From Acidobacteriota bacterium (GTDB lineage Bacteria > Acidobacteriota > UBA6911), in the NCBI GenBank assembly GCA_017860135.1, contig JAFNAG010000043.1, positions 1 through 38,003 on the forward strand: a stretch of 38,003 nucleotides of DNA, in the 5' to 3' direction. The position numbers and the translations under genes were made by a program. This document shows positions 2,698 to 12,908 of this stretch, piece after piece. The notes beneath the pieces are model-generated. The model was not told the DNA's origin, did not search any database, and saw nothing but the letters and a program-made list of their open reading frames with translations. Within the stretch, counting starts at the first letter, position 1, and every line of letters starts with the position of its first letter.

Positions 2698-4212
2698 ATG
2701 GAGACTGAGAGCCATTCCGATGTAACTCCCTATGATGAAGTTGCATACCCATGCCGTGCGCACCAGCAAACTCATCCCGATCTGCTTGCAACCCTCGGGC
2801 GGTTGTTCGGCATGCAGCCGGCTCCTGTGGATCATTGCAGTGTCCTGGAAATCGGCTGCGGGGATGGCACGAACCTGATTCCCATGGCGTACAGCCTGCC
2901 GGGGAGCCGGTTCCTGGGGTTTGATCTCGCCGGGCTGCCGGTCGCGCAAGGCTGTTCCGTCGTCCAGAAGCTCGGGCTGGCTAACGTCACCTTGTCCAGG
3001 CAGGACCTGATGGGTTTTGCCCTGGACTCGGGCCCCTTCGATTACATAATCGCGCACGGGTTCTATTCCTGGGTGCCGCTGCAGTTGCGGGACCGGGTGC
3101 TCGAGGCCTGCCGGGCCACCCTCAGCCCGCACGGGATTGCCTACATCAGTTACAATTGTTACCCGGGTGGGTATTTGCGCAGGATGTTGCGCGAAATGAT
3201 GCGGTTTCACGTCCAGCGCGCACCGGATCCCGCGACGAAGATCGGACAGGCTAAAGCCCTGCTGGGGTTCCTCGCCGATGCCCCGGTCCGGACTGACGAG
3301 TACCATCAGATCCTGAAAAAGGAATGGGCTCAGATCCAGCAACGGGATGCCGGCGGTTTCTATCATGATGATCTTGCCGAGGTGAATCAGCCCGTTTATT
3401 TTCACCAGTTCGTTGAGCATGCCGGCCGGCATGGCCTGCAGTTTCTGGCGGAAGCAGAGTACTTCATGATGCAGGACCGCGATCTGACCCAGGAGGCTCG
3501 CCAGGCCCTCGAAGGGCTGGAGAGCGATCGGCTGCTCCGCGAACAGTACCTGGATTTCATCCGGTTCCGGCGGTTCCGTCAGACTCTGCTGTGCCGCGAG
3601 GAGGTCCCGCTGCGGAGTGGACCGGATCCGGCGGTGGTCCCGCATCTCAGGGCGGCATCGTCCGCGCGGGTTCAAGCAGCCGAGACGGGCGCCGATCCTG
3701 CTGCTCCGGTCAACTACTGCAATGAATCGGGCGGGGTCATGACCTGCGGCGATGCGGCGTCGAAAGCGGTCCTGAAGTCTCTCACCGAGGCGTGGCCGCA
3801 CTCCCTGGTTTTCCGGGACCTTGCAGAGCGGGTAGGCGAGGCGATCCCCGCGGCATCGCCGCAGGAGAGCGAGTCTTTGACCGTCAGAGTGCTGCTCAGC
3901 GGGTATGGCCTGGGCATGGTGGAATTGCGAACCTTCGAACCGCTTCTGGCATTCGACGCAGGATGCCGGCCGGTGTGCAGCCCGGTTGCGCGCCTGCAGC
4001 TGTCCACGAGGGACGTCGTGACCAATCTAAGGCATGCGTCCGTGGGCTTTCAGGGCGAGACGATGCGCCGGCTGGTGCCCTTGATGGACGGGACACTCGA
4101 CCGCGCAGAGCTTGCGGTGAGATTGCGGCAGATCAATCCCGACGCGGAGTCCATCGACCTGATTCTGGATGAGCTTATCCGGCTGGCGCTTCTGCTTCCA
4201 TCCGCAGGGTGA
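2698..4212 (+). CDS. SAM-dependent methyltransferase with regulatory domain (PKMT-like)
   Basis: The predicted protein has 504 residues. The N-terminal third is a class I methyltransferase fold with motif I VLEIGCGDGTNL near residues 50-61 and the following acidic strand FLGFDLAG. The middle part matches the methyltransferase regulatory domain type (PF10119): stretches such as YHDDLAEVNQPVYFHQFVEHA and the helical region around FRRFRQTLLCR are typical. The C-terminal region, rich in Leu and Arg, looks like the winged-helix tail found in such proteins. The same three-part layout occurs in rickettsial outer-membrane-protein lysine methyltransferases, so a protein substrate is plausible but not shown. 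The next gene, 48 bases downstream on the same strand, encodes an outer-membrane barrel protein, which is suggestive only. Confidence 0.8.
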   Translation: METESHSDVTPYDEVAYPCRAHQQTHPDLLATLGRLFGMQPAPVDHCSVLEIGCGDGTNLIPMAYSLPGSRFLGFDLAGLPVAQGCSVVQKLGLANVTLSRQDLMGFALDSGPFDYIIAHGFYSWVPLQLRDRVLEACRATLSPHGIAYISYNCYPGGYLRRMLREMMRFHVQRAPDPATKIGQAKALLGFLADAPVRTDEYHQILKKEWAQIQQRDAGGFYHDDLAEVNQPVYFHQFVEHAGRHGLQFLAEAEYFMMQDRDLTQEARQALEGLESDRLLREQYLDFIRFRRFRQTLLCREEVPLRSGPDPAVVPHLRAASSARVQAAETGADPAAPVNYCNESGGVMTCGDAASKAVLKSLTEAWPHSLVFRDLAERVGEAIPAASPQESESLTVRVLLSGYGLGMVELRTFEPLLAFDAGCRPVCSPVARLQLSTRDVVTNLRHASVGFQGETMRRLVPLMDGTLDRAELAVRLRQINPDAESIDLILDELIRLALLLPSAG

Positions 4213-9616: not shown

Positions 9617-12076
9617 TTATTCGCATCTCAGGGAGGCCATGGGGTCTATGCGTGCCGCGCGCCTGGCAGGGATATAGCATGCCGCCAGTGCTGACAGAAT
9701 CAGCATTGCGGGAACCAGGCCGAAGGTCAAGCGATCGGTCGGTGTGACTTCGAACAACAGCGAACGCATGAAACGGGTGAGGACGTAAGCTCCGGCCAAT
9801 CCGATGCCGGCGCCGGAAAGTGCGAGGACCATGCCCTCGCGGACCACCAGCCGCAGGATGCCTGCCTGGGTCGCTCCCATTGCCATGCGGATCCCGATTT
9901 CCCTGGCACCCTGGCTGACCAGATACGCCATGACTCCGTAAATGCCGAAGCAGGCCACCGTCAGGGCGAGGCCGGCGAACAGGGCAAGGAGGAGCATGGA
10001 GAATCGCCGGCGGGCCAGAGACTGCTCCACGTATCGCTGCATCGTTTGCACGCGGTATGCCGGCAGGTCCGGATCAATATCATGAACCACTTTTTTTACG
10101 GCCACTGCAAGGGCAGCGGGTTCGACCCGGGTCCGGATCGTGAGGGTCATGCCCCGTGTGGGGTATTGCGTCTGCGGCAGGTAGACAACGATGCGCGGAT
10201 CGGAGTCCAACGCGTCGTGTTTCACCTGTCCGACAACACCGACGATGGTGATCCAGGGTGCGTCGGAGTTGGTGCCGCCGTGTCGAATACGCTTTCCGAT
10301 CGGGTTCTGGTCCGGCCAGAACTCACGGGCCATTTTCCCGTCTACGATAGCGACAGGGATGCTGTTTTGGGTGTCCTTTTCATCAAAGGAACGCCCATGA
10401 AGCAGCGGAATCTCCATGGCCTCGAAATATCTGCCGCCGACGATTCTCTCGTCCGTGTTGATGAATCTTTCACCCGGCTGGGGCGTCCTGCCCTCAATGG
10501 AGATGGGAGTCCAGGCCAGCGTTTGACTTAGCGGCAGCGCCGTGGTCGCGCCCGCAACCACCACGCCCGGCAAACTCTCGATTTTTTCCCGGAGCTGGCG
10601 ATAGGTTGCGAGCACCATTTGCGGCTCGGCATATTTCTGGCCGCTCAGCCGCAACTCCAGCGTCAGGAGATTCCGGGATTCGAATCCGGGGTGCACGTCC
10701 TGCAGGATCGCGAAACTACGGATAAGCAACCCGGCCCCGATCAGCAGCACCACTGAAAGCGCCAACTCAGCCACGACGAGCAGCTTGCGCATGTTCCAAC
10801 CCCGGCCCCAAATCGCGTTGGCGCCGGAGGAATCCCGGCCTGCCTCCTTCAGAGTCGCGATCAAGTCCGGGCGTGAAACGCGCAGGGCGGGAGCGAGACC
10901 GAAGACGACTCCTGCGGACAAGGATATCAGAAGAGTGAATGCGAGCACCCGGGCGTCGACGCGGATGTCGGACAACCGCGGAATACTCCCGGGACCCAGG
11001 ATCCTGATCCCATCGAGACTCCAGGCCGAAACGAGCATCGCCGCCGTTCCCCCCAAGAGCGCGAGGATCAAGCTCTCCGTTAGCAACTGGCGGATGATGC
11101 GGATGCGGGTGGCCCCCAGCGCCGTGCGCACCGCGATTTCCTTTTGACGGGCGAGCGCGCGAGCCAGCGAGAGGTTGGCGGTGTTCGCACACACCACAAG
11201 CATGACGATTCCGACCGCGGCGAGCAGAATGTAGAGCGGACGGCGCACGTTTCCCACCACCTGTTCGAGAAGGGGGACAACACTGAATGTAAGTCCGCCG
11301 TTCGGCGGGTAGACATCCGGGTGGTCCCTGCGCAGTCCAGCGGTCAGGAGGTCCATTTCCGACTGGGCCCGGCGGATGGTAACGCCCCGCTTTAACTTGC
11401 CGACGATGTTGAAATCCTCCCGGTTTCTGGTTTGTTCGGCAGATGCCGCCAGGGGCAGCGGAAGAAATATCTCGGCCTCCGCAGAGCCGTAAAGGGTCGG
11501 AAGCACTTCCCGGGGCAGTGAAAAAGATTGCGGCAGAATGCCGACCACCTCGTAGGGAAGCCCGTTCAGGGTGATTTTTCTGCCTATCATTCCCGGATCG
11601 GCGCCATACCGGCGAGCCCACATGCCGTGGCTGAGCAGCACCGTCGCCGCACGGCCCGTGATGTCATCTTCCGGCAAAAACAGCCGGCCTGAAGCGGCGG
11701 AGGCACCCAACATGGGAAGGAGATTGGAGGATGCCTGGATATAAGCAACACGCTCCGGTTCGCCGTCTCCGGTGAGGTTCATGTTGCTGCCAAAGGCAAT
11801 CGCGAGCTCCTCAAACCCGCTGTGGCCGTTCCTGATGTCAAAATATTGGGCTGTGGAGAACCAATCTTCACTAATACCAAGACCCGGCGAGCGGTTCCAG
11901 AGAATGACCAGCCGGTCCTGGTCCCGATAGGCAAGCGGATTCAGCAACAGCGAGTTGAATACGCTGAAAAGCGATGCGTTGGCGCCGATGCCGATGGCAA
12001 GGGAAAGGACGGCGGTCGACGCAAACCCCGGGTGCCTTCGCAAGGAGCGGAACGTCTGGCGGATATCCTGAATCAC
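9617..12076 (-). CDS. ADOP-type duplicated MacB/FtsX ABC permease
   Basis: The 819-residue protein begins with QTFRSLRRHPGFASTAVLSL, typical of ADOP permeases. Order of parts: first membrane helix (about 18-40), MacB-like periplasmic domain (about 45-245), an FtsX block of three helices (about 280-400), a second helix plus periplasmic domain (about 430-650), and a second FtsX block (about 690-805). Both blocks carry the signature REIGIRMAMGATQ or KEIAVRTALGATR. The start is GTG 12076, with GGAG four bases upstream; an ATG two bases further upstream is out of frame and stops at once. These permeases usually have no adjacent ATPase, as here. They probably form mechanotransmission-type exporters with TolC-like channels; substrate unknown. 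Confidence 0.9.
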   Translation of the reverse strand: MIQDIRQTFRSLRRHPGFASTAVLSLAIGIGANASLFSVFNSLLLNPLAYRDQDRLVILWNRSPGLGISEDWFSTAQYFDIRNGHSGFEELAIAFGSNMNLTGDGEPERVAYIQASSNLLPMLGASAASGRLFLPEDDITGRAATVLLSHGMWARRYGADPGMIGRKITLNGLPYEVVGILPQSFSLPREVLPTLYGSAEAEIFLPLPLAASAEQTRNREDFNIVGKLKRGVTIRRAQSEMDLLTAGLRRDHPDVYPPNGGLTFSVVPLLEQVVGNVRRPLYILLAAVGIVMLVVCANTANLSLARALARQKEIAVRTALGATRIRIIRQLLTESLILALLGGTAAMLVSAWSLDGIRILGPGSIPRLSDIRVDARVLAFTLLISLSAGVVFGLAPALRVSRPDLIATLKEAGRDSSGANAIWGRGWNMRKLLVVAELALSVVLLIGAGLLIRSFAILQDVHPGFESRNLLTLELRLSGQKYAEPQMVLATYRQLREKIESLPGVVVAGATTALPLSQTLAWTPISIEGRTPQPGERFINTDERIVGGRYFEAMEIPLLHGRSFDEKDTQNSIPVAIVDGKMAREFWPDQNPIGKRIRHGGTNSDAPWITIVGVVGQVKHDALDSDPRIVVYLPQTQYPTRGMTLTIRTRVEPAALAVAVKKVVHDIDPDLPAYRVQTMQRYVEQSLARRRFSMLLLALFAGLALTVACFGIYGVMAYLVSQGAREIGIRMAMGATQAGILRLVVREGMVLALSGAGIGLAGAYVLTRFMRSLLFEVTPTDRLTFGLVPAMLILSALAACYIPARRAARIDPMASLRCE

Positions 12077-12101
12077 ATTGCTCCAGATTCGGACCTATAC
12101 G

Positions 12102-12459
12102 CAGCGTCATAAGTCCGCGACACGATTCGAGAGTCGGTTTACGTCTGGTGAAGTCAGGATCGATCGCATATTCACCACAGAGACCACTGAGATCACGGAG
12201 GGGGAATGCCGCTGTTCATGCCCGGGGGCCAACGCTTCGCGTTGCGCGATTCACGTCCGGGAGCGTCAGGAAAGCCGCTCCCGTTATGGGTTCCATACGC
12301 GTGCCTGATGGCTTTCCCGCCGCTCCCGGACGTTAATCGCGGCCGACGGCGCCCCGGGCAGGCCTGGGATATCTCCGTGATCTCAGTGCTCTCTGTGGTT
12401 CGTTTTTGTTTTTCCTAACCTCAATCCGGCCCGAAAACCTGTCGGGACTTATGACGCTG
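12102..12459. repeat. Nested palindromic element, about 358 bp, MITE-like
   Basis: Three concentric inverted repeats are visible. Outermost: CAGCGTCATAAGTCC at 12102-12116 with a perfect complement at 12445-12459, continuing with one indel. Middle: 27-base arms at 12174-12200 and 12373-12399, 26 of 27 paired, containing ACCACAGAGA and GAGATCACGGAG. Inner: 32-base arms at 12245-12276 and 12310-12341, 29 of 32 paired. GC-rich GCCCGGGG segments between the middle and inner arms also pair. There is no ORF or transposase inside, and I see no clear target duplication. It lies 26 bases before the ADOP permease start, so it would be part of that gene's leader or promoter region. The remainder of 12460-12647 shows no gene. 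Confidence 0.75.
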
Positions 12460-12647
12460 TGCATATATAAAGAACCGTCACTTTTATCCGACATTCCCCA
12501 TGATGCCTGTCCATGACGTTACCGGCGACGGGAGTCGGGTAACATTCCAGCCTCCCTTCAAGTCACAGGAGAAATCCGGCGGAACTCCGAGATTATAGCA
12601 CGCCGCAATCAGCAGCAGTCCGGGAGCGAATATGATAAATATGTTGC

Positions 12648-12908
12648 ATGCGGCGCGATCCCGACTTTTTCCACGACCAGGAGATGGTTCTCATTTATCT
12701 TGCCAGGCGGCTCAAGGAGGCAAAGGCGCTCGAGGCCGTGCTCGACGCCGGCGGCCTGGACTATGCTGTCGAGCCGGCTCCCTACGGGAGCGGCACCCTT
12801 TTTCGTTCCCAGCGTATCGGTGCGTTTTTTTATGTCCTGCCTCAATCCGTGGAGCGCGCTCGTGCCCTAATGTTCCGGGACGGTTACATCCCCTATTCCG
12901 AGACTTGA
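12648..12908 (+). CDS. Small DUF2007-like protein
   Basis: An 86-residue cytoplasmic protein without signal peptide or membrane helix. The pattern LIYLARRLKEAKALEAVLDAG, followed by LDYAVEP and later FYVLPQSVERARALM, resembles the small alpha/beta DUF2007-type fold (putative signal-transducing protein) that recurs in Acidobacteriota. No enzymatic motif is visible. The ATG at 12648 has only a weak ribosome site (GGGAG lies about 21 bases upstream), so the start rests on the resemblance of MRRDPDFF to what I recall of this family. It stands alone between the nested palindrome and the electron-transfer region. Confidence 0.6.
   Translation: MRRDPDFFHDQEMVLIYLARRLKEAKALEAVLDAGGLDYAVEPAPYGSGTLFRSQRIGAFFYVLPQSVERARALMFRDGYIPYSET

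Follow-up and report, generated by a model that had tools for sequence, protein, structure and literature searches.

A nested palindromic element in front of an ADOP permease gene of an Acidobacteriota bacterium is probably a copy of a new composite MITE family

Bacterial MITEs are quoted at 70–300 bp (PMC3733652, in excerpt), and the closest described systems come from distant hosts. The Correia/NEMIS repeats of Neisseria are dispersed and non-coding, often lie upstream of genes and combine a TA-tipped terminal inverted repeat (TIR) of about 24 bp with a stable hairpin (PMC2229807 and PMC10969869, both in excerpt). Compared by description, the element reported here is alike in these respects and differs in being longer, in being nested and in having no promoter match. 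RUP of Streptococcus pneumoniae resembles it as a small non-autonomous intergenic element with a TA target, putative in the present case; RUP shares its TIR with IS630-Spn1 (excerpt of PMC2229807), whereas no TIR partner was found for the element here. The MITE of Candidatus Thiomargarita nelsonii, again compared by description, has TATA tips and a large hairpin, and is reported in the excerpted text of PMC4853749 to be spread genome-wide, also inside a group I intron, with no parental IS found. Among the matches listed by our literature search, from which most subscription papers lay out of reach, there was no description of the TIR end or of the element. TIR sequence strings gave no match, and strings of the CACAGAG repeat described below led to work that was unrelated by title.

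The window, by which we mean the whole stretch of 38,003 nt that was analysed, is contig C545 (JAFNAG010000043.1) of a 6.05-Mb draft assembly (GCA_017860135.1) in 715 contigs, 92.8% complete and 7.6% contaminated. An earlier note had described three nested inverted repeats in front of the ADOP permease gene, and a repeat search of positions 11900–12700 bears this out with exactly three concentric pairs (Table 1). The arms are 90% identical in the outer pair (21 nt), 96% in the middle pair (27 nt) and 91% in the inner pair (32 nt). The best gapless inverted-repeat score was 23, whereas none of 60 shuffles scored above 11. Folding the RNA of positions 12095–12466, a check that the note had proposed, gave a highly stable structure of −203.5 kcal/mol, compared with −135.8 ± 6.4 kcal/mol in 100 dinucleotide shuffles, none of which was as low (z −10.7). 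The nested repeats are far beyond chance. Some of the dimensions first given have to be revised. The perfect 15-base terminal arms (12102–12116/12445–12459) are real and form merely the core of a 21-base pair, so that the palindrome, real as well, measures 370 bp at 12096–12465 instead of 358 bp. The statement that the arms cover almost the whole element went too far, as the three arm pairs account for 160 of the 370 bases, with the predicted fold pairing much more. Reading frames wholly inside the element encode just 70 and 41 aa.

Table 1. Coordinates of the nested element, its parts and the adjoining gene, in positions of the window
Feature	Position	Strand	Basis
Whole element (370 bp, counting the TA at either tip)	12096..12465	.	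Copies and alignment of 11
Left terminal inverted repeat TATACGCAGCGTCATAAGTCC	12096..12116	+	17 left ends tabulated
Right terminal inverted repeat, minus-strand reading TATGCACAGCGTCATAAGTCC	12445..12465	-	17 right ends tabulated
Left middle arm, CACAGAG-type triple repeat ACCACAGAGA-CCACTGAGA-TCACGGAG	12174..12200	+	Motif also stand-alone in the genome
Right middle arm, CACAGAG-type triple repeat in inverted orientation	12373..12399	-	Repeat search
G+C collar CCCGGGGGC, opening the inner module	12221..12229	+	By eye in many printed copies
Small hairpin CAACGCTTCGCGTTG within the inner module	12230..12244	+	Sequence; fold
Left arm of the inner hairpin	12245..12276	+	Repeat search, covariation analysis
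Right arm of the inner hairpin	12310..12341	-	Repeat search, covariation analysis
Closing G+C collar CGCCCCGGGC	12350..12359	+	Sequence; printed copies
ADOP-family permease gene, start adjoining the element	9617..12076	-	TIGR03434

In the window's own genome, BLAST returned at least 56 matches at no fewer than 30 places on 30 contigs (E ≤ 1e-3; 40 of 52 candidates scored), and the TIR pattern revealed two further decayed copies (C417, C583). The earlier note had named a lack of other copies anywhere as the outcome that would speak against it; further copies are plentiful. Separate insertions may be slightly fewer than the places counted, since fragments at contig ends are included, and the unscored candidates may add to them. 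Copies on C607, C711, C528, C259, C329, C162 and C573 lie at contig ends or within 50 bp of them; the repeat has therefore probably caused breaks in the draft, which leaves the real number of copies uncertain. Identity in matches longer than 100 bp runs from about 69 to 97%, a spread from which we conclude that the family expanded over time. By eye, the flanks of the copies differ; their interiors are distinguished by large insertions and deletions, and the ends are kept. The 11 copies examined lie mostly outside long frames, with a long stop-to-stop frame entering or crossing the copy on C271, C225 and C247. Related genomes, comprising one of the same genus and 13 others of the same family, yielded no BLAST copy. 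Plasmids had no match to the element, to a 146-bp relative or to the one CACAGAG hairpin used as a query, phages none to the copy on C220, and viral contigs no exact TIR.

The ends of the element read TATACRCAGCGWCATAAGTYC, a terminus also written as TATACRYAGCGNCATAAGTYC, which has 31 matches in the genome at up to 3 mismatches, with none for the reversed control. The 15-mer CAGCGTCATAAGTCC, which the earlier note had put forward as a probe for further copies, is indeed present at either end of the element, and variants of it occur at ends of other copies. At two mismatches this 15-mer is unspecific (25 matches versus 12 for the reversed control), and the extra places that it marked on C489 and C549 held no element by eye. 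Among the 34 ends identified at up to 4 mismatches, 17 on each side, positions 1–19 are well conserved; 29 begin with TA and 20 with TATA. The two sides can be told apart at position 20, which is C in 16 of 17 right ends versus 1 of 17 left ends.

The middle arms are of the type CCACAGAGA-NCACNGAGA-NCACRGAGG, a triple repeat for which we counted 34 arms in the genome at up to 3 mismatches and none in the control. Element-matched places hold 26 of these arms. The other 8 lie elsewhere, as inverted pairs on C41, C265 and C344 and as single arms on C139, C276 and C462, which makes the middle layer a module in its own right. In the three inverted pairs, which include the stand-alone loci L115, L118 and L119, the arms are about 50–60 bp apart. 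A genome from the same class has similar arms (L031, L032), and the strict form was found in 78 stretches of viral-contig records. The inner layer, a G+C-rich hairpin, has all of its 25 matches at element places; it is absent or cut down in the copies on C254, C23, C431, C271, C5 and C169 and partly duplicated in that on C221. Another repeat, about 290 bp long, starts with ACTACTAACCTGAAAATCC and contains runs of GATTGCGATTGCGA (L057, L061, L062, L066, L068, L116, L120). By eye, it adjoins CTGT or a near form, mostly within the CACAGAG motif, as if inserting there.

We read the element as a copy of a non-autonomous TIR transposon that belongs to a new composite MITE family, with a probability of about 0.85; this figure refers to the MITE reading and not to insertion at TA. 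A 21-bp TIR closes both ends, where 15–30 bp is asked of a MITE, and the element lies at 30 dispersed places and has no reading frame of appreciable size. Its 370 bp exceed the 70–300 bp of the definition, and copies with both ends run from 183 to about 485 bp. An absent autonomous partner is not decisive for membership, as such partners can be lost (PMC4853749, in excerpt). The earlier note had offered a MITE, an extruding cruciform or an RNA hairpin as guesses; the 30 places and the shared ends speak for the first, and we found no direct evidence for a cruciform or a role as RNA. Under the MITE reading, a transposase supplied in trans would recognise the TATACRCAGCGWCATAAGTYC ends and insert the element at TA, and one copy would have inserted into the spacer upstream of the ADOP permease gene. 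The nested palindrome may have grown as palindromic modules were inserted, deleted and duplicated within the loop.

Because the consensus of the terminus itself starts with TATA, a TA duplication is unreadable from single sites. Comparison of empty sites, as suggested in the earlier note, was possible for one filled and empty pair, in another genome (G220), where L121 is a paralogue of the filled locus L103 and lacks the element. The empty site reads ...CTTATCGGGCGCTAAATCGTGG... and the filled one ...CTTATCGAGTACTA[element]TAGTACTCGTGG...; only TA is common to both, and the 3–6 bases beside it differ, so that duplication of TA is supported and not proven, and a clean duplication is not seen. 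L103 is also flanked by GAGTAC/GTACTC, which extends its terminal palindrome and is absent from the unfilled L121. At another site, genome G064 has both flanks of the copy L106 of G222 with about 151 bp between them, and so looks filled too.

The same terminus was found in distant bacteria. An exact TIR scan of GTDB contigs gave 11 loci, against about one expected by chance on our own estimate, in records labelled Desulfobulbaceae, Desulfofustis, Deltaproteobacteria, Proteobacteria, Chitinivibrionales and ‘bacterium’. Ten of these loci have a second, inverted end 139–162 bp away at up to 4 mismatches, and in the eleventh (L080) the second end is diverged, as judged by eye. The TIR occurs at up to one mismatch (control 0) in 12 of the 257 genomes of the class to which the Desulfobulbaceae MAG belongs, 5 of the 12 having been chosen for holding it. 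The 25 paired elements listed measure 139–162 bp, apart from one of 97 bp, and are thus less than half as long as the element here; they have the same 21-base terminus and an unrelated interior. By eye, 24 of the 25 share one interior, and the Chitinivibrionales copy, single in its genome by TIR search, has another. When two copies from the window's genome were compared with the 25 foreign elements, 114 of 120 BLAST matches were terminal, and the other 6, in the interior, had E values of 0.9–4.2. The asymmetry at position 20 recurs in the 24 elements that share one interior, with C in 21 of 24 B ends versus 1 of 24 opposite ends. Beside the copy L106, the flank at about 2870–3001 contains a stretch of 80–130 bp that recurs in many of at least 117 of the 257 genomes, often twice in each (L126–L132); seven of its loci held no TIR, and five had no Rfam match.

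One end that closes unrelated elements in distant bacteria points to a shared mobilising enzyme. No autonomous partner with the TIR was found, either in the TIR listing of the window's own genome or in 20 stretches around apparently single ends; the partner search covered, among the places listed, the own genome, the GTDB contigs, 7 genomes and the 257 genomes of the Desulfobulbaceae class. Short paired elements turned up in 14 of the 20 stretches, and in the remaining 6 the second end had diverged or been lost at a contig end, as judged by eye. No reading frame between two TIR ends was found in the stretches searched. Among transposase families, IS630 was the only one tested.

A MITE of the IS630/Tc1 type, whose IS630 partner has since been lost or is absent from the draft assembly, is a tentative reading to which we would give rather less than even odds. 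It agrees with the TA tips of 29 of the 34 ends, with the TA at the unfilled site and with the precedent of RUP (PMC2229807, in excerpt). In one TIR-bearing genome, moreover, each end of the IS630 locus L111 carries TA-N10-CATAAAT, which matches the layout of TA-N10-CATAAGT here (one case, picked by eye). The transposase domain itself occurs in 5 of 15 TIR-bearing genomes, and within the Desulfobulbaceae class it shows no enrichment (4 of 12 TIR-bearing genomes against 92 of 257 in the class). Three IS630 loci in the window's own genome are without the TIR. In all, none of 39 examined loci, which include 30 of the many from the class survey, shows the TIR pair, and 15 of the 39 have no recognisable TIR pair of any kind. 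IS630 as mobiliser is not supported.

A broader hypothesis, which we regard as doubtful, is that one unrecognised transposase type other than IS630 serves the conserved 21–23-base terminus across at least three phyla, with the lineages having built passengers of their own. Here, the passenger would consist of nested palindromes produced by module insertion into loops, starting from the widespread CACAGAG hairpin, and its arms would have been matched by copy-correction.

The position of the element invites a regulatory explanation, in which the permease transcript folds as a nested hairpin that, as a regulatory RNA or attenuator in the leader, governs expression or serves as a substrate of RNase III; we consider this unlikely. 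The adjoining gene encodes a genuine ADOP protein (TIGR03434, 953.6 bits; cut-off 622.3), a family that would itself suggest Acidobacteriota. Its GTG start at 12076 on the minus strand has the element 19 bp upstream, and the very stable fold described above would suit such a role, as would the report that RNase III cuts Correia-containing transcripts (PMC10969869, in excerpt). The unrelated flanks of the copies stand against it. A consensus promoter or terminator was considered as the identity of the element and rejected, no sigma-70-like promoter or terminator-like site being present at 11950–12800. A known RNA family was likewise rejected, with no Rfam match above the gathering score in the window and 11 loci.

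Covariation across the 11 aligned copies, where the inner helix rests on at most 6 sequences related by descent, bears on the leader RNA in both directions. Changes on both sides of a pair affect 6 of 32 pairs of the inner hairpin, in which 95% of cells pair, and only 2 of 27 pairs of the middle arms and 0 of 21 of the outer arms. The covariation score of the whole structure exceeded all 500 shuffles, which ignore relatedness, and the measure of further pair types was unremarkable, 91 of the 500 shuffles being as high. RNAalifold gave no strong consensus fold (−1.35 kcal/mol, on a gappy alignment of the copies). Moreover, copy-correction of palindrome arms would yield identical paired changes, so we read these as either copy-correction or weak selection, and they fall short of demonstrating that the RNA has a function. 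That the element regulates the permease directly is an unsupported possibility, and improbable in our judgement; if the permease is affected at all, this would be incidental to the presence of a strong hairpin in its leader or close by.

We give the lowest odds to an array of REP/BIME-like palindromes that is mobilised by a tyrosine transposase (RAYT/TIRYT) and not by a DDE enzyme. The nested palindromes speak for it, as do the TIR-flanked tyrosine transposases described in Acidobacteria (PMC3733652, in excerpt). Against it stand the defined 21-base inverted ends on both sides, unlike REPs, which are GTAG-tagged palindromes of 20–40 bp that go with a RAYT gene.

As a MITE, the element would be ordinary in kind and represent a new family with a diagnostic end. 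Its interest lies in the terminus, which is common to several phyla, and in the nested build. The stand-alone CACAGAG hairpin is a separate repeat worth a study of its own, and ideas on how bacterial genomes come to build large palindromes could be tested on the nested layout.
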